Shown here: positions 7,851-55,574 of the stretch, in pieces
Layout of the letters: each line of letters starts with the position of its first letter
Position numbering within the stretch: position 1 is the first letter of the stretch
Origin: Archangium violaceum
GTDB lineage: Bacteria; Myxococcota; Myxococcia; Myxococcales; Myxococcaceae
Length of the DNA stretch: 64,000 nt
Direction: 5' to 3'
Assembly (NCBI RefSeq): GCF_016887565.1
Contig: NZ_CP069396.1
Coordinates: 9,964,001-10,028,000 of the forward strand
The notes under the pieces: model-generated
Told to the model about the DNA's origin: nothing
The model's database searches: none
The model's input: only the letters and a program-made list of their open reading frames with translations
Made by a program: the position numbers and the translations under genes

Positions 7851-9170
7851 ATGGCCAGAATCGCCTTCCTCCCCATACCGACTCCGGGGCACATCAACCC
7901 CACCTTCAAGCTCGCCAAGGTGCTGCGCGCCCGGGGTCACGAGGTGATCTACTCCAGCCTGCGCGACGTCGAGGATCCGATCCTCGCCGAGGGCTTCGCC
8001 TTCGAGCCCGCCTTCGAGGAGCAGTGCCCCAAGGGGATGATGCCGCAGGTCGCCGCGAAGCTGGCGGAGTTGCGCGGGCCGCGACTCTTCTTCTACGCCC
8101 GCGAGGTCATCCGGTGGAACAACCTCCTGATGCATGAGATGACCCACGGCGGCATCGAGCGGCAGCTCTCCCGGCTGCGCCCGGATCTGATCCTCGTGGA
8201 CGAGATGCTCCTCCACGCCCGCATCATCGCCTACGGCAGCCGCATCCCCACCCTCGTGCTCAACACGACGATTCCGGAGATGGAGCCCGGCCCTCGGCCC
8301 TCAGGCATCCTCAACACCCTCCGCCACGGGTTGCGCAAGAGCTACAGGGAGGCCATCAACCACCTGCTGCATCTCCTCGGCCTGGACTCTCCCATTCCCA
8401 CCGGCCGGGCCATCGACGAGCTGAGCCGCAAGTACGACTACCCGCTCCCCCCCGACCCCGACGGCATCATCCGCCTCAGCAACCCGCGGATCCCCGAGCT
8501 GGTGCTCAGCCCCCGGGAGTTCATCGAGACAGGCACCACCCGCACCGCCGGCCAGTGCCACTACCTCGGCCCCTGCCTCGACCTGGAGCGACAGGAGCCG
8601 GACTTTCCCTGGGAGCGGCTCGCCGAGGGCAAGCCCCTCGTCTTCCTCTCGCTGGGCACCCTGTCCTTCGGCGCTCCGGAGAGCCGCGCATTCTTCGAGC
8701 TCTGCCTGCGAACCGCGGCCCTGCGGCCAGACTGGCAGTTCGTCCTGGCCACCGGCTCGGTGATCCCCACCTCGCTGGGCACTCCTCCGCCCAACCTCCT
8801 CGCTGTCCAGCAAGCCCCCCAGTTGCGGCTGCTGCAGCGCGCGGCGGCCATGGTCACCCACTGCGGATTCAACAGCGCCAAGGAGTGCATCTACTTCGGC
8901 GTCCCCATGGTGGCCATTCCCCAGCGGGCGGATCAGCCCCAGGTGGCCCACCTGGTGGCCCACCACGGCCTGGGCGTGCGCAGCTCGCTCCCCGAGCTCA
9001 CTCCCCAGAAGCTGCTGGCCCTGCTGGACGAGGTCACCACCCGCCCCGCCCTGCGTGGCACGCTGGAGGCCATGCGCGCCCGCTTCCGCGAGACGAACTC
9101 GGACGACCACATCGCCTCCACCCTCGAGCGCTTCCTGCCGACCACCCCGGCCAGGGCCCTGGCCGACTGA
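7851..9170 (+). CDS. GT1 family glycosyltransferase (MGT/UGT type)
   Basis: 439 aa from ATG 7851 (MARIAFLPIPTPGHINPTFKLAKVLRARGHEV); nearby GTG 7833 and ATG 7842 are alternatives and no clear ribosome site separates them. The N-terminal acceptor domain starts with the classic GHxxP motif. The C-terminal donor domain shows PLVFLSLGTLSFG and the signature THCGFNSAKECIYFGVPMVAIPQRADQ, typical of UDP- or dTDP-sugar transferases acting on macrolides, aglycones or lipids. It is convergent with the last NRPS gene, with a 72-bp gap. It may tailor the lipopeptide, but shared regulation cannot be seen because the strands oppose. Confidence 0.87.
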   Translation: MARIAFLPIPTPGHINPTFKLAKVLRARGHEVIYSSLRDVEDPILAEGFAFEPAFEEQCPKGMMPQVAAKLAELRGPRLFFYAREVIRWNNLLMHEMTHGGIERQLSRLRPDLILVDEMLLHARIIAYGSRIPTLVLNTTIPEMEPGPRPSGILNTLRHGLRKSYREAINHLLHLLGLDSPIPTGRAIDELSRKYDYPLPPDPDGIIRLSNPRIPELVLSPREFIETGTTRTAGQCHYLGPCLDLERQEPDFPWERLAEGKPLVFLSLGTLSFGAPESRAFFELCLRTAALRPDWQFVLATGSVIPTSLGTPPPNLLAVQQAPQLRLLQRAAAMVTHCGFNSAKECIYFGVPMVAIPQRADQPQVAHLVAHHGLGVRSSLPELTPQKLLALLDEVTTRPALRGTLEAMRARFRETNSDDHIASTLERFLPTTPARALAD

Positions 9171-9242
9171 CCCACCCCTGCATGAGACGGGAGCTCCGCG
9201 CCGGCCACCGTGAGGCGGCCCGGCGCGCGCCGCTCTCCCGCG

Positions 9243-24704
<15,462 letters not shown>

Positions 24705-24710
24705 GGGATG

Positions 24711-45464
<20,754 letters not shown>

Positions 45465-45731
45465 GATGTCCGAGCCATGTCGACGCGGCCGGGCCATCCA
45501 CCTGGCCCGCCCACGGGAGGGGTGTCGCATTCTGCACAGAAGACACATCGCCAACAATGGCGCCGCCAGGAGCCCACACAACCCGTTGGGTCATGCGGTC
45601 AGCGGCGCTCACGAGACCCGTCACGACGGAGAAGAAAGGTTGACGGTGGTTCGAGGACGAGTCTCGTTTTCTTGTTGGCTTGGAGCTTCGCGGGGCTGCG
45701 AGCGGTCGTGCCGCTCACGCGCATCGGCTCG
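45465..45731 (-). promoter_or_regulatory. Intergenic leader of the NRPS operon
   Basis: Non-coding stretch between the envelope cassette and the NRPS start. I see no convincing -35/-10 pair and no strong ribosome site before ATG 45464; in-frame alternative starts lie inside it up to 45581. Confidence 0.3.
45700..45716 (-). terminator. Hairpin after the envelope cassette
   Basis: GAGCGG - TCGTG - CCGCTC, 6-bp stem, 15 nt past the stop codon at 45732 in the direction of transcription. No T-run, so it is only a candidate. Confidence 0.3.
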
Positions 45732-46286
45732 CTAGAACGAGGCGCCCACCTCGAACAGCCCCAGGCGCACGGCGGTGGCCTGACCGGGCCACTCCGAGCC
45801 CAAGCCCACGCCCAGCTCGACGAGGGAGATCTGCAGGCCGTCGACGTTGAAGCGCAACGGCGCCAGGGCGACCCCCACGGACAGGCCGGGGCCCACAGCG
45901 GGAGTGGGGTGCTCGGGCGTGATGAAGGTGAGCTGGCCGCCGAGGAAGCCCGAGAGCACCACCAGGGCGGCCGGCGAGTACAGGCCCCGGCGTTGGATGC
46001 CCGCGCCCACCCGCAGCAGCAGCGAGTTGCCCACCATGGTCAGGTAGTTGAGGTCCGCCTGGAGCAGGAAGCGATCCCTCACGGTGTCGCGCACTCCGCA
46101 GCCGCCCCCGACGCCTCCCGCCGTCCTCGCATCGGAGAGGTGAATCCCACCGCTCACGCCACAGTAGACGGAGAAGCGGTGCGCGGGCACCGCCTCGTCC
46201 TGCGCGCGGGCCGCTCCGGCCCCCAGCAAGGCCAGACCCAGCACTCCCGCGCACGCCGCGCGGCACGGCTTCGAGAAGCGGCTCAT
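45732..46286 (-). CDS. Exported beta-barrel-like protein, unknown function
   Basis: 184 aa. Signal peptide residues 1-28 (CAGVLGLALLGAGAARA). The mature part is Gly-rich with alternating hydrophobic strands (FSVYCGVSGGIHL, FLLQADLNYLTMVG, LLLRVGAGIQR, LGLFEVGASF) and ends in Phe, so an outer-membrane barrel is likely. The ATG overlaps the stop of the M28 peptidase by 4 bp (ATGA), so the two are translationally coupled. It has no recognised family. It resembles in size and layout the third member of this cassette (47284-47853), suggesting they work as a pair around the peptidase. Confidence 0.72.
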   Translation of the reverse strand: MSRFSKPCRAACAGVLGLALLGAGAARAQDEAVPAHRFSVYCGVSGGIHLSDARTAGGVGGGCGVRDTVRDRFLLQADLNYLTMVGNSLLLRVGAGIQRRGLYSPAALVVLSGFLGGQLTFITPEHPTPAVGPGLSVGVALAPLRFNVDGLQISLVELGVGLGSEWPGQATAVRLGLFEVGASF

Positions 46287-47287
46287 CGCGGACCTCCGGC
46301 CCAGTAGGCCAACGCCGCCGCCGACACCTGCACCGCCTTGCGGAAGGACACGGGATCCAACGTGGGAGGCAGATCCGACTCCCAGTGGTAGTTGGGGTTG
46401 CGGAAGTTGGCGGTGTCAGTGAGGAAGAGGGCGTTGCGGCCGGTGAACCAGAAGGGGGCGTGATCGCTGCGCAGCAGGTTGCCCGTCAGCGGGTAGGCCC
46501 CCCTCCCCGGAGACACGACGGGGACGACATTGATGAGGTGCAACGCCTGGCTGAGCGCGTAGAGGTCCGTGGCCTGCTGACGGGAGTCCTCATTGGCGAA
46601 GGCCGCCAGGAAGTCCCCCGTGTTGGGGGCGGGGAGGCCGGGCAGCGAGCCCTGGGAGCCCGGGCGGGAATCGTAGTAGCCGATGCAGTCGAAGACGACC
46701 GAGGCCACGAGGCGCTCACCGCCGAGCGTATCGACGTAGCGGTTGCTGCCCACCAGCCCCACCTCCTCGAGGTCGAAGCCGACGAAACGCACGGTGCGAT
46801 CGAACCGGTATTGCGACAGCACCCGGGCCAGCTCCAGCACCGCCGCCACTCCGGAGCTGTTGTCATCCGCACCGCCGAAGTAGGCGTCGAAGTGGGCTCC
46901 CACCAGGACGACCTCTTCCGGCTTGGAGACACCGGGCAGCTCGGCGATGACATTGGAAGAGGACCAGCCACCGCCCTCGGCGATCTGACGGGAGACCTTC
47001 AGCCCATGCGAGCCCAGGGAGTCCACCATCATCTGCCCGGCGCGATCCCGCGTCAGGCTGCACAAGGCGGGGAAGTGCTCGTCATCCCAGACGGAACAGG
47101 GAAGGGGCGTGTCCTCCAGGTGGGCCTTCACCAGCTCGTCCACATGCCGCATGAGCCGCTCCTGATCCACCTGGGCGACCAGCTCCTCCAGGCGGGCCAG
47201 ATCGGCCCCTTCCAGCGTCCGGGGAGTGCAGGTGACACCGAGCAGGGCCAGCGAGACCGCCAGGAGCTTGCAGGCCAGCCGCTTCAT
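46283..47287 (-). CDS. M28-family zinc aminopeptidase lipoprotein
   Basis: 334 aa. Lipobox LLGVTC with Cys20 places it in the envelope. The M28 zinc site is clear: GAHFDAYFGGADDNSSGVAAVLE gives the first His and the bridging Asp, FDLEEVGLVGS gives the catalytic Glu pair, and RSDHAPFW gives the last His. M28 enzymes release N-terminal residues from peptides using two zinc ions. A GGGAGGG ribosome site precedes ATG 47287. It overlaps both neighbours by 4 bp, forming a tight three-gene unit with two barrel-like proteins. It is upstream of and co-directional with the NRPS genes but 819 bp away, so a role in lipopeptide maturation or self-protection is speculative. Confidence 0.88.
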   Translation of the reverse strand: MKRLACKLLAVSLALLGVTCTPRTLEGADLARLEELVAQVDQERLMRHVDELVKAHLEDTPLPCSVWDDEHFPALCSLTRDRAGQMMVDSLGSHGLKVSRQIAEGGGWSSSNVIAELPGVSKPEEVVLVGAHFDAYFGGADDNSSGVAAVLELARVLSQYRFDRTVRFVGFDLEEVGLVGSNRYVDTLGGERLVASVVFDCIGYYDSRPGSQGSLPGLPAPNTGDFLAAFANEDSRQQATDLYALSQALHLINVVPVVSPGRGAYPLTGNLLRSDHAPFWFTGRNALFLTDTANFRNPNYHWESDLPPTLDPVSFRKAVQVSAAALAYWAGGPR

Positions 47288-48940: not shown

Positions 48941-49076
48941 GCCTCGCGGCGGTGCCATGGCGGGCTCGCGCCCGCGCGATAGGGGCGGAAATGGCTCCGG
49001 CTCGGGAGTGCCGGGGCCCACCACTGCGTTTCAGCACGCTAGAGTGCCCCCCGCGCCCACCGAGGCGTTCCCGACC

Positions 49077-51905
49077 ATGGCCACGAGGAAGAGCGAGGAC
49101 AATGAGAGGCTCATCGACCGAGACCTGACCGCGCTGGCGCGGGACGGGAAGCTCACGGCCGCGTACGGCGTGGACGGTCCGGTGATGGAAGTGCTGGGCC
49201 TGCTGGCGCGAGGGGGCAAGCATCCACTGCTCTCGGGGGAGCCCGGGGTGGGCAAGTCCGCCCTGGTGCAGGAGGTGGCGCGCCGCATCACCGAGGGCCG
49301 CGTGGACGCGGAGCTGGCCCAGGCGCGGATGGTGGAGGTGTCCGTCGCCAACATCCTGGCGCGCAGCACCCAGCGCCAGGCGGCGGAGTCGTTCGAGGAG
49401 CTGCTGGCCTGGCTGAGCCGGCACCCCTGCCCCATCGTCTACATCCGGGATCTGCCCGCGGTCATCGGCGGCCCCCTGGCCCCCGTGGCCTTCCGGGCGC
49501 TGCGCACCGGGGGCATCCGCTTCATCTTCGAGACCGAGCCCAAGCGCGTGCAGGAGCTGCTGCGCGCGGACGAGTCGTTCTCCGAGCGGCTGCACCTCGT
49601 CCCCCTCCAGGAGCCGCCCGCAGAGCGGGCCCGGTGGATATTGGGCCGCGTGGCCGAGGAGCTGGAGCGTCAGCTGCACCTGCCCATCGACCCGGCGGCG
49701 TGCGACCTGACCCTGCGGCTGGCCTCCAAGTTCCTGCTGGCCCAGAGGCTGCCGCGCAAGGCCATCGAGCTGCTCAAGGAGACGGCCGCGGAGGCCGCCG
49801 GCGGGGCCAAGGACCGCGTGGGCCCCGAGGACGTCCTCACCCGCTTCTGCGCCACCACCCGGCTGCCGCGCTTCGTCGTGGACGACGCGATGGCGCTGGA
49901 TCTGGAGGAGACCGAGCGCTTCTTCGGAGAGAGGCTGCTGGGGCAGACGGACGCGGTGCAGGCCGTGCTGCGCTCGGTGGCACTGCTCAAGGCGGGGCTC
50001 AATGATCCGCGCCGGCCGCTCGGCGTGTTCCTCTTCGCCGGCCCCACCGGCGTGGGCAAGACGCAGCTCGCCAAGCTGCTGGCCGAGTACCTCTTCGGCT
50101 CTCCGGACAGGCTCGTCCGCCTCAACATGGCGGACTTCCCCAACGACGGGGACGAGAGCGTCCCCTTCGGGGCCTCGTGGGCGCCCGCGCTCGAGACGAA
50201 GCGCGGCGAGCTGACGGCGCTGCTGGAGGGCAAGGTGTTCACCGTGCTGCTGCTCGACGAGTTCGAGAAGGCGGCGCGCAGTGTGCACGACCGCTTCCTG
50301 CAGCTCTTCGACGAGGGCACGTTCGTCAACGGCGCGGGAGAGACGATCTCCTGCAACAACACCGTCATCGTGGCCACGTCCAACGTGGGCGCGGAGGTGT
50401 ACCGCGAGCCGGCCATCGGCTTCATGGGCTCGCGCCGTCCCGAGGAGCTCATCACCGAGGTGGACCGGCGCATCGCCGAGGCCTTCCGTCCCGAGTTCCT
50501 CAACCGCTTCGACGCCATCTGCCACTTCCAGCCGCTGACGAAGGTGGAGATCCGCAAGATCGCCCAGCGCGAGGTGGGCCGGGTGTTGGAGCGCGAGGGC
50601 ATCCGGGCCCGAGGCCTGGACGTGGAGGTGACGCCCGCGGTGGTGGACCTGCTGGTGGAGCGGGGCTACTCGCCGCAGTTCGGCGCGCGCTACCTGCAGC
50701 GGGAGATCGAGAAGACGCTGACCGCGGCGCTGGCGGTGGAGATCGCCCGCCGGCCGCTGCCTCCGGGAGCACCGGTGCGGGTGGAGACGCGGCCGGGCAA
50801 CAAGGTGGTGGCGGTGGCCGAGCACACGCCGCGCCCGCGTGAGGAGACGGCCCAGCTCGCGCTGCCCACGGAGAAGTCGGTGTCCGCGGTGAAGCGGCGG
50901 CTGGACAAGAAGTCGCTGCTCAACGAGATGGACCGGCTGGTGGGCCGGGCGCGGGCGCTGTCGGTGTCGGCGAACCGGCCGAGGCTGGAGGAGCGGCGCG
51001 CGGAGCTGCTGGCGGCGACCCAGGCGCCCAACCTGTGGGACGAGCCGCAGCGCGCGGCGTCGACGCTGCGGGCCTTCCGGACGGTGGAGGCACAGCTCAA
51101 CGAGCTGGACCGGCTGGAGGAGCGGACCACCTTCGCGAGGCGGCTGGTGCGCGAGGCGAAGGGCGAGGCGCAGCTCGCGTCGGCGGCGAAGCAGGTGGAG
51201 GACGTGGCGCGCGAGGTGCAGATGGCCGAGGTGCTGGGAGCCGCGGGGGCGACGGACCACGGCGACGAGGCGCTGGTGGACATCTGCGCGAGCGAGACGG
51301 GCGAGGGACAGGACGCCTGGGTGCAGGAGCTGGCGACCATGTACCTGGGCTGGGCGGAGCGGCGCGGGTACGAGGCCACTGCGGTGGCGGAGGCGGAGGA
51401 GCCCTTCCGGGTGGTGGTGCGGATCGCCGGGCCTGGGGCCTACGGCTACCTGGCGGGCGAGGCGGGTCTGCACCGGCGCCTGGAGGAGGAGAAGCGCCAG
51501 CGCGCCTACGTGCGGGTGCACCGAGGCGGGCCGGTGGAGGAGTCGGTGAGCCTGGACGTGGAGGGCCGCGAGGTGAAGCGGCACGAGGGCACGTACCTGG
51601 CGCGGGTGAAGACGGAAGTGACGGTGCGGGACGAGACCACGGGCCGGATGATGACGCTGGCCGGCGCGGGCGAGCTGGACGAGATGAAGGACATCGCCTC
51701 TCGGGTGGTGAAGGGCCAGGGCGGCAGCAGCACGGCGGACGAAGCCCGGCGCTACCACCTGGGCCGAGGGGCTCGGGTGGAGGACCCACGCACCGGAGCT
51801 GGCACTCCGCGCGTGAAGGATGTGCTGCGCGGCGAGCTGGATGTCTTCATCGCCGCGTGGATCTCCCGTCCGCCCACGACGAGTCCCACTCCCACCGCGA
51901 ACTGA
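49077..51905 (+). CDS. Two-AAA+ ClpA/B-like ATPase fused to a release-factor-2-like domain
   Basis: 942 aa from ATG 49077; the frame extends to 48957 but the extra 40 residues are Pro/Gly/Arg-rich and unlike the family. D1 (about 20-290) has GEPGVGKS, but its Walker B reads PIVYIRDLP instead of a DE pair. D2 (about 280-580) is intact: GPTGVGKTQLAK, VLLLDEFEKA, FRPEFLNRFDAI, and a ClpA/B C-terminal subdomain. There is no M-domain coiled coil between them. From about residue 600 to 938 the sequence follows RF2: LWDEPQRAA, DAWVQELATMYLGWAERRGY, GAYGYLAGEAGLHR and RVEDPRTGAGTPRVKDVLRGELDVFIAAWI. The catalytic GGQ loop and the SPF codon-reading motif are absent. So it is likely an unfoldase with a ribosome-linked or repurposed adaptor domain; it is not a working release factor. 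Confidence 0.85.
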   Translation: MATRKSEDNERLIDRDLTALARDGKLTAAYGVDGPVMEVLGLLARGGKHPLLSGEPGVGKSALVQEVARRITEGRVDAELAQARMVEVSVANILARSTQRQAAESFEELLAWLSRHPCPIVYIRDLPAVIGGPLAPVAFRALRTGGIRFIFETEPKRVQELLRADESFSERLHLVPLQEPPAERARWILGRVAEELERQLHLPIDPAACDLTLRLASKFLLAQRLPRKAIELLKETAAEAAGGAKDRVGPEDVLTRFCATTRLPRFVVDDAMALDLEETERFFGERLLGQTDAVQAVLRSVALLKAGLNDPRRPLGVFLFAGPTGVGKTQLAKLLAEYLFGSPDRLVRLNMADFPNDGDESVPFGASWAPALETKRGELTALLEGKVFTVLLLDEFEKAARSVHDRFLQLFDEGTFVNGAGETISCNNTVIVATSNVGAEVYREPAIGFMGSRRPEELITEVDRRIAEAFRPEFLNRFDAICHFQPLTKVEIRKIAQREVGRVLEREGIRARGLDVEVTPAVVDLLVERGYSPQFGARYLQREIEKTLTAALAVEIARRPLPPGAPVRVETRPGNKVVAVAEHTPRPREETAQLALPTEKSVSAVKRRLDKKSLLNEMDRLVGRARALSVSANRPRLEERRAELLAATQAPNLWDEPQRAASTLRAFRTVEAQLNELDRLEERTTFARRLVREAKGEAQLASAAKQVEDVAREVQMAEVLGAAGATDHGDEALVDICASETGEGQDAWVQELATMYLGWAERRGYEATAVAEAEEPFRVVVRIAGPGAYGYLAGEAGLHRRLEEEKRQRAYVRVHRGGPVEESVSLDVEGREVKRHEGTYLARVKTEVTVRDETTGRMMTLAGAGELDEMKDIASRVVKGQGGSSTADEARRYHLGRGARVEDPRTGAGTPRVKDVLRGELDVFIAAWISRPPTTSPTPTAN

Positions 51906-53200: not shown

Positions 53201-55423
53201 TCACGGCTTCGGCTGCCCGGGAGGCACCGCCGGAGAGGAACCCGGAGACAGCACCGAGTCACACACGCTCCCGTCCATCCACTGGCGCTTGCAGGCCTCG
53301 CGCAGGAGCGGCTCGCGGAACTGCCAGAGCATCGCGAAGAGGATGACGAGCGTGAGGACGATCCACGCCCCCGGAGAGCCCTGCTCCGCCTCATCGTCCT
53401 CCCGTACCCTCACGAGCACGGAGCGCAACACGTCGGTCCGGTCCACGGTGGCGTGCTTCGGCAGCCTCGGCCTGCGGGTGATGAGGGCCGCCAGGTCCCG
53501 TGTCACCATCAACCGGTCGTTGAGCGCCCAGCCCGAGCCCTCCAGCAGCAGCGCCAGGTTGCGCTTGCGCAGCTTGAGCCAGCCCAGCAGGCCCGACGGC
53601 ACCATGACCAGGAGCGCGACGATGATCGCCGCCGAGACGATGTCGAAGAGCGTGAGCGACTTCGCCTGCGTCACGATGAACGCGAGTGACGAGCCCACCG
53701 CCGCGAACGTGATGCCCAGCGCCGCGATGAAGCCCGCCGGCCCCGCCACCGGAACCGCTGGCGCCGGAGCAGCGGGGGCACCCGCGGCGGGCACCGGAGC
53801 CGGCGTGAACCCCTTCTCCAGCTGCGCGTCGAGCGACTTCTCCCCGGCCGTCGCCATCCCCTCGATCTTCGAGGAGATGAAGCGGCCGATCCGCTCGAAC
53901 GGCATCATCATCGCCTCCCACAGCGAGACGGGCTGGTGGAGGACCTGCGTCACCACGGCGTCGAACTCGCGGCCCTCCACGTCGTAGAACACGCCGCGCT
54001 TGCCCACCGAGAGGTAGGCGCTCCGGCCTCGCGTGGCGGGCACGGCCACCTCGTAGCTCGCTCCCCCCTCCTTCGCCACCACCTGGACGTAGAGGGTGCA
54101 CGTGGTGCCCTGGCTCGTCAGCGCCGAGTGCGCCGCGCGGTTCGTCACCAGCACCGCCAGCCTGTACCGGAGCCCTCCCAGGATGAGCGTCCCCTTCTCC
54201 ACCAGCGCCCGCCGCTTCGTCTGGTAGAGGTCCGGCATGCTGATGAAGTTGTTGGCGAACGTCAGCAGCCAGCGCTGATAGAGGATCAGCCGCTCCAGCT
54301 CCTCCACCGCGTCCAGCTTGTCCTTCAGCAACAGGTCCGCCCGGCACGCCACCTCGAGGGCGTCGAGGTCGGACTCGGAGATGTCCGGCAGCACGTCCAC
54401 CAGTCCGCGCAAGGGGCTCGCGTCGAGCCGCGCCCACCACGCCAGGATGGCATCGGCCCTGGCGGACAGCTCCCGCCAGGCGGTATCCCCCAGTGTCGCC
54501 GCGTCCGCGGTGAGGGGCACGGCCACGTCCCGCCGGAAGGCCTCGAGCTTCTCGAACGCCGGGCCCCGGTACAGCCGGGACCAGCGGAGCGCTCCCCCTG
54601 GCTCGGGTGGCGCGATGGGCAACTCCGACACCGCTCGCGCGAGCGCCTGCGTGTCCCCGAGCGAGCCCTGCACCCGGCCCGCCTCCAGCTTGAGGCTCGT
54701 GACGGCCTCCGGCTGCGCCGCGACCAGCCGGCACTGCAGGAAGTACGTGTCCAGCAGAGGCCGGACCTCCTGGATGCGCCGGGCCTGCTCCACGCTCCGC
54801 TCACCCCACACCAGCACCGACTCCCTTCCCGCCAGGTGCGCCAGCAGCGCGCTCCGCTCCTCCCGCGCGCGCTGGAGCATGGGCGGATCCACCCCCGCCT
54901 GCCCCGCCCGGTTCCTCACCTCGGGGAAGCTGGCCATGAGCTTCTCCGCCAGCGGGCGCAGCCGCTCGGGCAGGAACGCCGGGGCGACGATGCCGTCCCC
55001 GTTCTGCCCCGCCTCGAGCAGCGCCTTCTCGCTGGCCCGCACCTGCTCCAGGGAGATGCGCGTCCGATCCCCGGCCCTCAGCGTCTCCAGCAGGATGCCG
55101 GCCACGTCCCGTAGCTTCACCCCCTCCTCGGAGAGCGCGTCCAGCTCGAGCACCTCGCTCGCCGCGTCCGCGCCCTGGTACGACTTCAGCAACTTCGCCG
55201 TGTGCTCGACGGCGGCGCGCACCTCGACGACCCGGATGCGCTCGTTCCGGTCGGTGTCGACAAAAGTGAGAAAGCCCCGGTCGCAGTTGAGACCCTCGAG
55301 TGGACAGGCCGTGGCCAGCCACTGGGTCTCCGGGATGCGGACCGCCTCCACGAGCACCTCGAACGAGGGGATGGAGACCTGGAGCGAGCCGCCATAACGG
55401 CGGTACACGAGCGGTCGTGCCAT
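53201..55423 (-). CDS. Large membrane protein with EF-hand-like loop, unknown function
   Basis: 740 aa from ATG 55423; the upstream extension is Arg-rich shadow sequence. The N-terminal region holds DTDRNERIRVVE (residues 56-67), which fits the 12-residue EF-hand calcium loop, and a second Asn-Gly-Asp-Gly site (GQNGDGIVAPAFLPE). A long helical middle part follows. Near the C-terminus are an Ala/Pro-rich linker and membrane segments (GFIAALGITFAAVGSSLAFIV, DIVSAAIIVALLVMVPSGLLGWL, WIVLTLVILFAMLWQF). A soluble stretch between the last helices contains RDLAALITRRPRLPKHATVDRTD. No family is recognised; myxobacterial genomes are known to carry large lineage-specific membrane proteins of this kind. 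It is convergent with the esterase gene. Confidence 0.68.
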   Translation of the reverse strand: MARPLVYRRYGGSLQVSIPSFEVLVEAVRIPETQWLATACPLEGLNCDRGFLTFVDTDRNERIRVVEVRAAVEHTAKLLKSYQGADAASEVLELDALSEEGVKLRDVAGILLETLRAGDRTRISLEQVRASEKALLEAGQNGDGIVAPAFLPERLRPLAEKLMASFPEVRNRAGQAGVDPPMLQRAREERSALLAHLAGRESVLVWGERSVEQARRIQEVRPLLDTYFLQCRLVAAQPEAVTSLKLEAGRVQGSLGDTQALARAVSELPIAPPEPGGALRWSRLYRGPAFEKLEAFRRDVAVPLTADAATLGDTAWRELSARADAILAWWARLDASPLRGLVDVLPDISESDLDALEVACRADLLLKDKLDAVEELERLILYQRWLLTFANNFISMPDLYQTKRRALVEKGTLILGGLRYRLAVLVTNRAAHSALTSQGTTCTLYVQVVAKEGGASYEVAVPATRGRSAYLSVGKRGVFYDVEGREFDAVVTQVLHQPVSLWEAMMMPFERIGRFISSKIEGMATAGEKSLDAQLEKGFTPAPVPAAGAPAAPAPAVPVAGPAGFIAALGITFAAVGSSLAFIVTQAKSLTLFDIVSAAIIVALLVMVPSGLLGWLKLRKRNLALLLEGSGWALNDRLMVTRDLAALITRRPRLPKHATVDRTDVLRSVLVRVREDDEAEQGSPGAWIVLTLVILFAMLWQFREPLLREACKRQWMDGSVCDSVLSPGSSPAVPPGQPKP

Positions 55424-55574
55424 ATGGCGGCGCAAGAGAGCACACCCGTCCGTCCGATACCCGTCCGACCCGACGCGCACGTGCGCTGGCGAACGCCGGG
55501 CCGGCTGACAGTCCGCCCGCCCGCCTGCTCGCTCCAAGCCTCGACCTGCTTGCATCCAACCCCCTCACCGGGGC

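Follow-up and report, generated by a model that had tools for sequence, protein, structure and literature searches.

We describe here a gene of Archangium violaceum that joins a Clp-type AAA+ ATPase to a homologue of release factor 2 (RF2) in which neither GGQ nor SPF is found. The gene lies on the forward strand at positions 49077-51905 of the stretch of 64,000 nucleotides that was analysed (hereafter the window; contig NZ_CP069396.1, positions 9,964,001 to 10,028,000, assembly GCF_016887565.1). Its open reading frame (ORF) runs from an ATG at 49077 to a stop codon ending at 51905 and encodes 942 amino acids (aa), namely two Clp-type AAA+ domains (D1 and D2, residues ~33-582) followed by an RF2-like fold (~609-930). 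The frame remains open upstream as far as an ATG at 48957; the nearest orthologues have the same start region as the ORF at 49077. The explanation that we consider the best one, although we hold it tentatively, is that the protein is a Clp-class (Hsp100, class I) ATPase in which D2 is the motor and a release-incompetent RF2 fold has been re-purposed as a dock.

The initial annotation of this DNA, made from its letters alone, had proposed a fusion of an AAA+ protein with an RF2 homologue, and the comparison with profiles, sequences and structures bears it out. Pfam recognises PCRF at residues 638-800 (6.9e-18), and the NCBIfam prfB profile matches in two stretches, the better one at 624-834 (1.3e-25); the NCBIfam ClpA profile spans residues 15-569 as one stretch (9.7e-84). 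Neither NCBIfam score reaches the curated cut-off of its model, which a divergent relative would not be expected to do. A search of PDB sequences gave an RF2 match of 1.7e-18; in a further, weak stretch (9 bits) the C-terminal end of the protein is aligned with that of RF2. Two alignments of family members, one of 19 sequences (A1) and one of 20 (A2), were drawn from two families of one order; the word invariant is used here within these sequences, and the conservation of positions in the family is partly due to their shallow depth. When the 20-member profile was compared with E. coli RF2, a single stretch (1.3e-24) connected profile positions 35-326 to RF2 residues 30-360, confirming the likeness along most of the C-terminal third. 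With the same profile, all the 40 PDB sequences found at E values up to 0.01 were release factors, RF2 standing above RF1, for which the value was at best 9.1e-13. The absence of any significant profile match to RF2 or PCRF, on which the annotation had made its proposal depend, is thus not what was found.

The structure prediction leads to the same fold. For residues 602-942, AlphaFold2 gives a model (mean predicted local distance difference test, pLDDT, 75.5) that resembles free RF2 (1gqe) with a Z of 17.1 over 287 residues; the root-mean-square deviation of 7.6 suggests that the domains may have moved relative to 1gqe. The later part of the model follows ribosome-bound release factors to ~2.0-2.8 A across ~95-112 residues. 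PCRF and the four-domain fold of a class I release factor are therefore both present.

What this fold has lost is equally consistent. GGQ and SPF, whose absence had already been pointed out in the annotation, occur in 0/20 family members and in 30/30 myxobacterial RF2s, a comparison set selected for having both motifs; ERSQ is likewise absent in 20/20. Five of the six RISPFD columns are gapped in all the 20 sequences, as are 20-22 of the 27 columns surrounding the switch loop (E. coli residues 315-323, as defined in PMC5378476). According to the same paper, E. coli RF2 recognises the stop codon through SPF and attaches to the L11 stalk through domain 1, GGQ works at the peptidyl-transferase centre and the switch loop contacts the decoding centre. 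With both motifs gone and the switch-loop region deleted, peptide release of the release-factor type and stop-codon reading are excluded by the sequence, and so is "rescue" in that sense, a word that the annotation had used. Positions conserved in at least 90% of the 30 RF2s number 115, and the family retains 23 of them, only three in domain 1, whose fold is predicted to be retained; 89 further positions are conserved within the family and not as such in RF2. The switch-loop Trp itself was not taken as a test, because the genome's own RF2 (L062 / L165) has Phe at that position of E. coli RF2; DI[ST]FGSQIR, with Phe for Trp, was observed in the six myxobacterial RF2s inspected (of 30).

The same genome harbors true prfA (RF1) and prfB (RF2) genes elsewhere, both with GGQ, as well as a transfer-messenger RNA (tmRNA) whose match is far above the curated cut-off (the search gave matches in 14/14 control genomes, nine of them above the cut-off). 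A 129-aa ORF weakly matches RF2 residues 202-270 (6.8e-6) and might be of the ArfB type, by inference rather than from its letters. ClpA-, ClpB- and ClpC-type proteins, so labelled by us from their features, are also encoded, together with ClpP genes (two strong matches and one weak).

As for the AAA+ part, Pfam places AAA_2 at 313-481 (8.7e-35) and ClpB_D2-small at 487-569 (1.1e-14), and the fold matches ClpC, ClpB and ClpA (ClpC, 9a66, Z 28.8) in a comparison covering the PDB families ranked by Foldseek; a tandem AAA+ pair with Clp-type D2 and D2-small, as in Clp/Hsp100 class I, is therefore present. No M-domain (coiled coil) appears in the alignment or in the model, where the D1 lid joins D2 directly, in agreement with the annotation. 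Its statement that D1 had lost the Walker B acid pair holds for the first acid, since the motif reads hhhhRD in 18/19 sequences and hhhhPD in one; it does not hold for the second position, where Asp stands in place of Glu in 19/19. The Walker A of D1 (G-x-x-G-V-G-K-[ST]) is kept in 19/19 and the functional D1 Walker B of class I is lacking, a combination from which we infer that D1 probably binds ATP without hydrolysing it. In D2, GPTGVGKT, LLLDEFEKA, TSNVG, EFLNRFD and GAR, that is, Walker A and B, sensors and arginine finger, are found in 19/19, and by motif this domain is ATPase-competent. Two features went unmentioned in the annotation, namely the non-canonical pore loops described below and [ILMV]GF, which occurs in 19/19 at the loop where ClpA and ClpC dock ClpP. 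ClpA has IGL there, and in the same genome the loop reads SIGF in the ClpA-type and ALGF in the ClpC-type protein, whereas no such tripeptide was seen in the ClpB-type one. ClpB gained ClpP binding once the ClpA segment had been grafted into it (PMC4023160). Judging from the motif, coupling to ClpP through this loop may occur, a prospect that we rate a little short of even.

The fusion is the sole full-length match in the 13.2-Mb genome of the window. Across the Myxococcota, where the annotation had suggested looking for it, the RF-like domain was detected in 87 of the 195 genomes searched (E <= 1e-22): 86 of the 96 belonging to the window's family (one copy being a relic and some partial), one from a neighbouring family of the same order and 0/98 of the remaining ones. 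The domain is missing from ten family genomes, of which three (G022, G086, G109) are smaller than 3 Mb and the others measure 3.9-6.9 Mb. At the best match an open frame of at least 700 aa is present in 79/87 genomes, even though such a frame in GC-rich DNA is by itself no proof of fusion; the exceptions are G078, G084, G111, G167, G185, G188, G191 and G193. G104 and G049, though among the 79, have a stop codon inside the match, and G111 carries the AAA+ part with the start of the RF part on one contig and the remainder on another. Through full-length alignment the fusion was seen in 19 sequences; loci L009-L038, except L031 (contig end), align from residues ~102-104 to ~929-942. A scan of a one-genome-per-species collection with two peptide patterns, which would miss distant forms in other phyla, returned 48 loci, 47 of them with myxobacterial titles, including a strain record (L079) of Myxococcus xanthus, a standard laboratory bacterium. 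The remaining one (L087, BNCN01000002.1) is titled Comamonas sp. KCTC 72670; it carries a 75% identical, Myxococcaceae-type RF-like domain and is probably mislabelled or contaminated. In G167, the domain lies in a 421-aa open frame (G167:C1:3004142-3005146) on a large contig of a two-contig genome, where the fusion may be interrupted.

The relic belongs to a metagenome-assembled genome (G084). Between xerC and hslV-hslU (G084:C77 ~8090-9284, locus L056), an N-terminus stub, the linker and the RF domain lie, by eye, in different frames; the AAA+ part is absent, the frame is broken and the best AAA+ match of the genome is a Clp-like protein, 32% identical. Of 12 hslV loci, this is the only one with an RF-like stretch, and xerC is in the flank of eight of the 11 others. 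A stand-alone RF domain in partnership with an AAA+ protease was considered for this locus and discarded, because the frames show a fusion remnant; we take the locus for a relic, or else a fault of assembly, and base no functional claim on it. Upstream of hslV in the window's genome (L142), an ORF fragment ends, by eye, in a Hint/intein-like domain as in polymorphic toxins.

A further group of proteins has to be considered. At G000:C1 ~6.797-6.808 Mb (L059, G000:C1:6791000-6810000) three Clp-like genes stand in a row on the minus strand. In two of the encoded proteins (1115 and ~1150 aa) the long C-terminal part contains AFLALEAGLHRF and FFEGEAGLHVW, which are similar to AYGYLAGEAGLHRR of the fusion. 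Although Pfam finds no PCRF in the cluster proteins, hhalign relates the RF domain of the fusion (A2) to the two tails with 5.2e-6 (probability 86%) and 1.8e-4 (48%), the two tails matching each other with a probability of only 6%. The A2 profile is below 1e-3 in 25/30 sequences (missing L126, L151, L156, L160 and L161), compared with 0/30 reversed and 0/600 shuffled ones (best shuffle 0.0037), and the similarity spans ~35-65 residues only. These two Clps are also devoid of GYVG, and an unrooted AAA+ tree of 25 sequences separates the canonical Clps from the fusion and the cluster proteins (support 0.899, long branches). The L002-type tail is sporadic (15/193 genomes, one of them, G133, from another family). 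From their sequences, these proteins may form a small kindred of Clps with RF-derived tails, which would speak for a ribosome-independent adaptor role. After the cluster Clps, a 482-aa ORF (L059:6799-8244) shows, by eye, caspase-like SHG and CLAC motifs and has no Pfam match at 0.01.

If the fusion is a Clp-class ATPase with an RF2-derived dock, it would form hexamers as other Clp ATPases do, D1 serving as a nucleotide-binding structural ring and D2 performing the work. The pseudo-RF2 would bring the motor to a partner, most likely at the factor site and L11 stalk region of the ribosome, which is the weakest step of the scheme; D2 would pull on the protein bound at the dock, and the [ILMV]GF loop would pass substrates to ClpP. 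We find it rather probable that the pseudo-RF2 is a docking module. The ribosome appears as the single likeliest partner, because the RF2 fold has been kept entire, together with the domain by which RF2 touches L11; even so, a ribosomal dock is to be regarded as possible but doubtful, and non-ribosomal partners are in sum about as likely. A bacterial one-protein counterpart of Cdc48-Vms1, in which a catalytically dead RF2 docks on the factor site of the ribosome and the ATPase removes a factor, a ribosomal protein or part of a stalled complex and delivers it to ClpP, is an unlikely reading; such a protein would be, to our knowledge, the first AAA+ protease sensing the state of the ribosome through a release-factor mimic.

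Several observations weigh against this proposal. The aromatic pore-1 motifs, KYR-type in D1 and GYVG in D2 (as defined in PMC9663308), occur in 0/19 family members, so that the canonical substrate-gripping loops are missing in both rings and the "unfolding" of the initial annotation, as written, finds no support; near the pore-1 position of D2 there is an invariant FGxxW (19/19), with W368 two residues ahead of the Tyr position in a gapless comparison with the ClpB of the same genome. A G-F or G-I behind a hydrophobic or similar residue is also found in the relatives L002, L003, L005 and L008, which are not known as ClpP binders, and the RF domain (340 aa), being behind D2, should sit on the ClpP side and may hinder ClpP. 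Ribosome binding lacks direct sequence support, because no contact loop is retained and so few of the RF2-conserved positions are kept. No neighbouring gene in the 21 regions compared gives a link to translation or proteolysis. The C-terminal segment 886-930 is poorly modelled (pLDDT 36-58 in the domain model; 55-69 to residue 910 and then 35-37 in the full model), perhaps owing to the shallow alignment or to folding upon a partner. The constraint on this segment must also be read with reserve. Using a simple Nei-Gojobori count of the ratio of nonsynonymous to synonymous substitution rates (dN/dS) in pairs with eight of the 18 other A1 sequences, it has the lowest value in 8/8 pairs (0.015-0.195 vs 0.08-0.30 for D2), a result that rests on 44-45 codons with dS often higher there, dN being lower in only 6/8 pairs and identity higher in only 4/8. 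It is fair to say that, at the codon level, the constraint on the segment is comparable with that on the motor. The values of 0.39-0.90 for RF domain 3, once the catalytic one, show loose constraint and make it the fastest-evolving folded part. The constraint on the RF part and the 89 family-specific positions argue for a pseudo-RF2 in use, that is, a re-purposed binding domain rather than a relic.

Other explanations account for part of these data. The RF2 fold might have been co-opted for tasks unrelated to the ribosome, serving as a general adaptor, in regulation or in oligomerisation, the AAA+ part being a scaffold or a switch and not a threading unfoldase. The loss of the ribosome-active loops and of the pore-1 motifs in both rings would fit this idea, as would the weak piece of RF-like domain in the two cluster Clps without GYVG and the grouping of the fusion with them, apart from canonical Clps. 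On the other hand, a whole four-part RF2 fold has been kept, beyond the needs of oligomerisation, the ATPase motifs of D2 are fully retained, and the piece shared with the cluster is short, its two tails hardly matching each other. We see this as a genuine contender, albeit one that we doubt. It is improbable, in our opinion, that the protein is a competitor or regulator of termination, in which the pseudo-RF2 would occupy RF2 sites (the L11 stalk, RF3 or RF2 partners) and the ATPase would eject or exchange factors without proteolysis: RF2 rather than RF1 is indeed the nearest relative (1.3e-24 vs at best 9.1e-13) and domain 1, the L11-contacting part in RF2 (PMC5378476), is present, but only three RF2-conserved positions have been inherited in it.

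Two more possibilities deserve very little credit. A ribosome-rescue or peptide-release enzyme like RF2, ArfB or PrfH might be suggested by the RF2 homology along nearly the whole length of the domain; however, all the 20 sequences lack GGQ and SPF as well as the switch-loop region, and tmRNA, RF1 and RF2 are already in the genome, so that a catalytic rescue factor was ruled out on the missing GGQ and the whole idea is highly improbable. Still harder to believe is a decaying or accidental fusion devoid of function. The relic of G084, the stop codons in the matches of G104 and G049 and the loose constraint on RF domain 3 would be in agreement with it, yet it is contradicted by the low dN/dS, a sign of purifying selection on D2 as well as on the RF domain-4 segment, and by the open frame of at least 700 aa in 79/87 genomes.

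Like ClpA and ClpC, the fusion has two AAA+ domains, the D2 motifs and a hydrophobic-G-F at the ClpP-loop position, and like ClpA it has no M-domain; unlike them, it lacks the Clp N-domain before D1, has lost the D1 Walker B and both canonical pore-1 loops and has gained a C-terminal RF2-like domain of 340 aa. Its D2 is ~37% identical to the nucleotide-binding domain 2 structures of ClpB, whereas the absence of the M-domain and the presence of [ILMV]GF, missing from the ClpB-type protein of the genome, distinguish it from ClpB/Hsp104. With RF2 (PrfB) it shares the complete fold and the GxHR, DxRT and VLxGxLDxFI blocks, but not SPF, GGQ and the switch-loop region, nor most of the conserved positions, and RF2 is not joined to an ATPase. 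PrfH, ArfB and other RF paralogues also put the RF fold to uses beyond normal termination, though PrfH and ArfB, unlike the fusion, retain the catalytic Gln; in eukaryotic ribosome quality control, a release-factor-type protein (Vms1/ANKZF1) works with the AAA+ ATPase Cdc48 (PMC6514570 for all of these). In that case the RF fold is unrelated, the proteins are separate and Vms1 is catalytic. The proteins of the three-Clp cluster resemble the fusion in their Clp-like AAA+ part and long C-terminal part, which in two of them contains a GPG/GTN...EAGLH segment; the rest of that part is not recognisable as RF2, the cluster adjoins the caspase-like ORF and its occurrence is sporadic. Among the matches listed in the open-access literature, no description of a Clp-release factor fusion was found, and the main text of a survey of RF evolution (PMC6514570) has no word starting with "Clp". 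The parts are known; their combination appears not to be.

The features of the gene are collected in Table 1; the consensus of the domain-4-like segment is EARRYxLGRGARVEDPRTG...PRVKDVLRGELDxFIAAW.

Table 1. Features of the Clp-type AAA+/pseudo-RF2 gene, in positions of the window.
Feature	Position	Strand	Basis
Whole gene, Clp-type AAA+/pseudo-RF2 fusion	49077..51905	+	ORF, Pfam, NCBIfam, alignment with orthologues
AAA+ domain D1, residues ~33-270	49173..49886	+	Walker A 19/19; Walker B hhhh[RP]D; ClpA profile
Degenerate D1 Walker B IVYIRD, residues 120-125	49434..49451	+	First acid replaced by R (18/19) or P (1/19)
AAA+ domain D2 and small domain, residues ~271-582, likely motor	49887..50822	+	Pfam AAA_2, ClpB_D2-small; motifs 19/19
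D2 pore-1 position FGASWAP, residues 364-370	50166..50186	+	FGxxW 19/19, GYVG 0/19
IGF at ClpP-docking loop position, residues 447-449	50415..50423	+	[ILMV]GF 19/19
Variable linker, residues 583-608	50823..50900	+	dN/dS 0.25-1.47 (8 pairs); low pLDDT
RF2 domain-1-like helical bundle, residues 609-728	50901..51260	+	PCRF; helices in model; RF2 alignment
RF2 domain-2-like segment, residues 729-815	51261..51521	+	GPG...GxLxxExGxHR block; SPF loop missing after HRR (799-801)
RF2 domain-3-like segment, residues 816-885, GGQ loop replaced	51522..51731	+	No GGQ 20/20; dN/dS 0.39-0.90
RF2 domain-4-like C-terminal segment, residues 886-930, strongly constrained	51732..51866	+	dN/dS 0.015-0.195; 28/45 positions conserved in >=90% of 20

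Concerning the neighbourhood, no gene family recurs in more than seven of the 21 regions compared (the window and 20 loci); the most frequent are one upstream and one downstream family, each in seven regions and in overlapping sets, as judged with a crude ORF picker that missed the fusion itself in L051. Guilt by association within an operon was accordingly dropped. Together with the presence of the domain in 86/96 family genomes, this suggests a function that is self-contained and vertically inherited, and not mobile. A defence system was also dismissed, since the PADLOC matches (six families, the best being DolB, 1.5e-26) cover AAA+ stretches only and were taken to reflect generic ATPase similarity. 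In the window, a 784-aa ORF at 53204-55555 (-) shows, by eye, hydrophobic segments in its C-terminal part, matches no Pfam family at 0.01 and has a relative in 3/21 compared regions, the window counted; a 2167-aa open frame at 39804-46307 (+) is probably, at a guess, a spurious shadow of opposite-strand genes in GC-rich DNA.

In this family, a whole release factor has been disarmed, joined to a Clp motor and maintained over the history of the family beside normal RF1, RF2, tmRNA, Clps and ClpP. If the dock is not the ribosome, the fusion would clearly exemplify how a translation factor can be turned into a module for recruiting proteins. If it is the ribosome, bacteria would possess an extractor, driven by ATP, that acts directly at the factor site.

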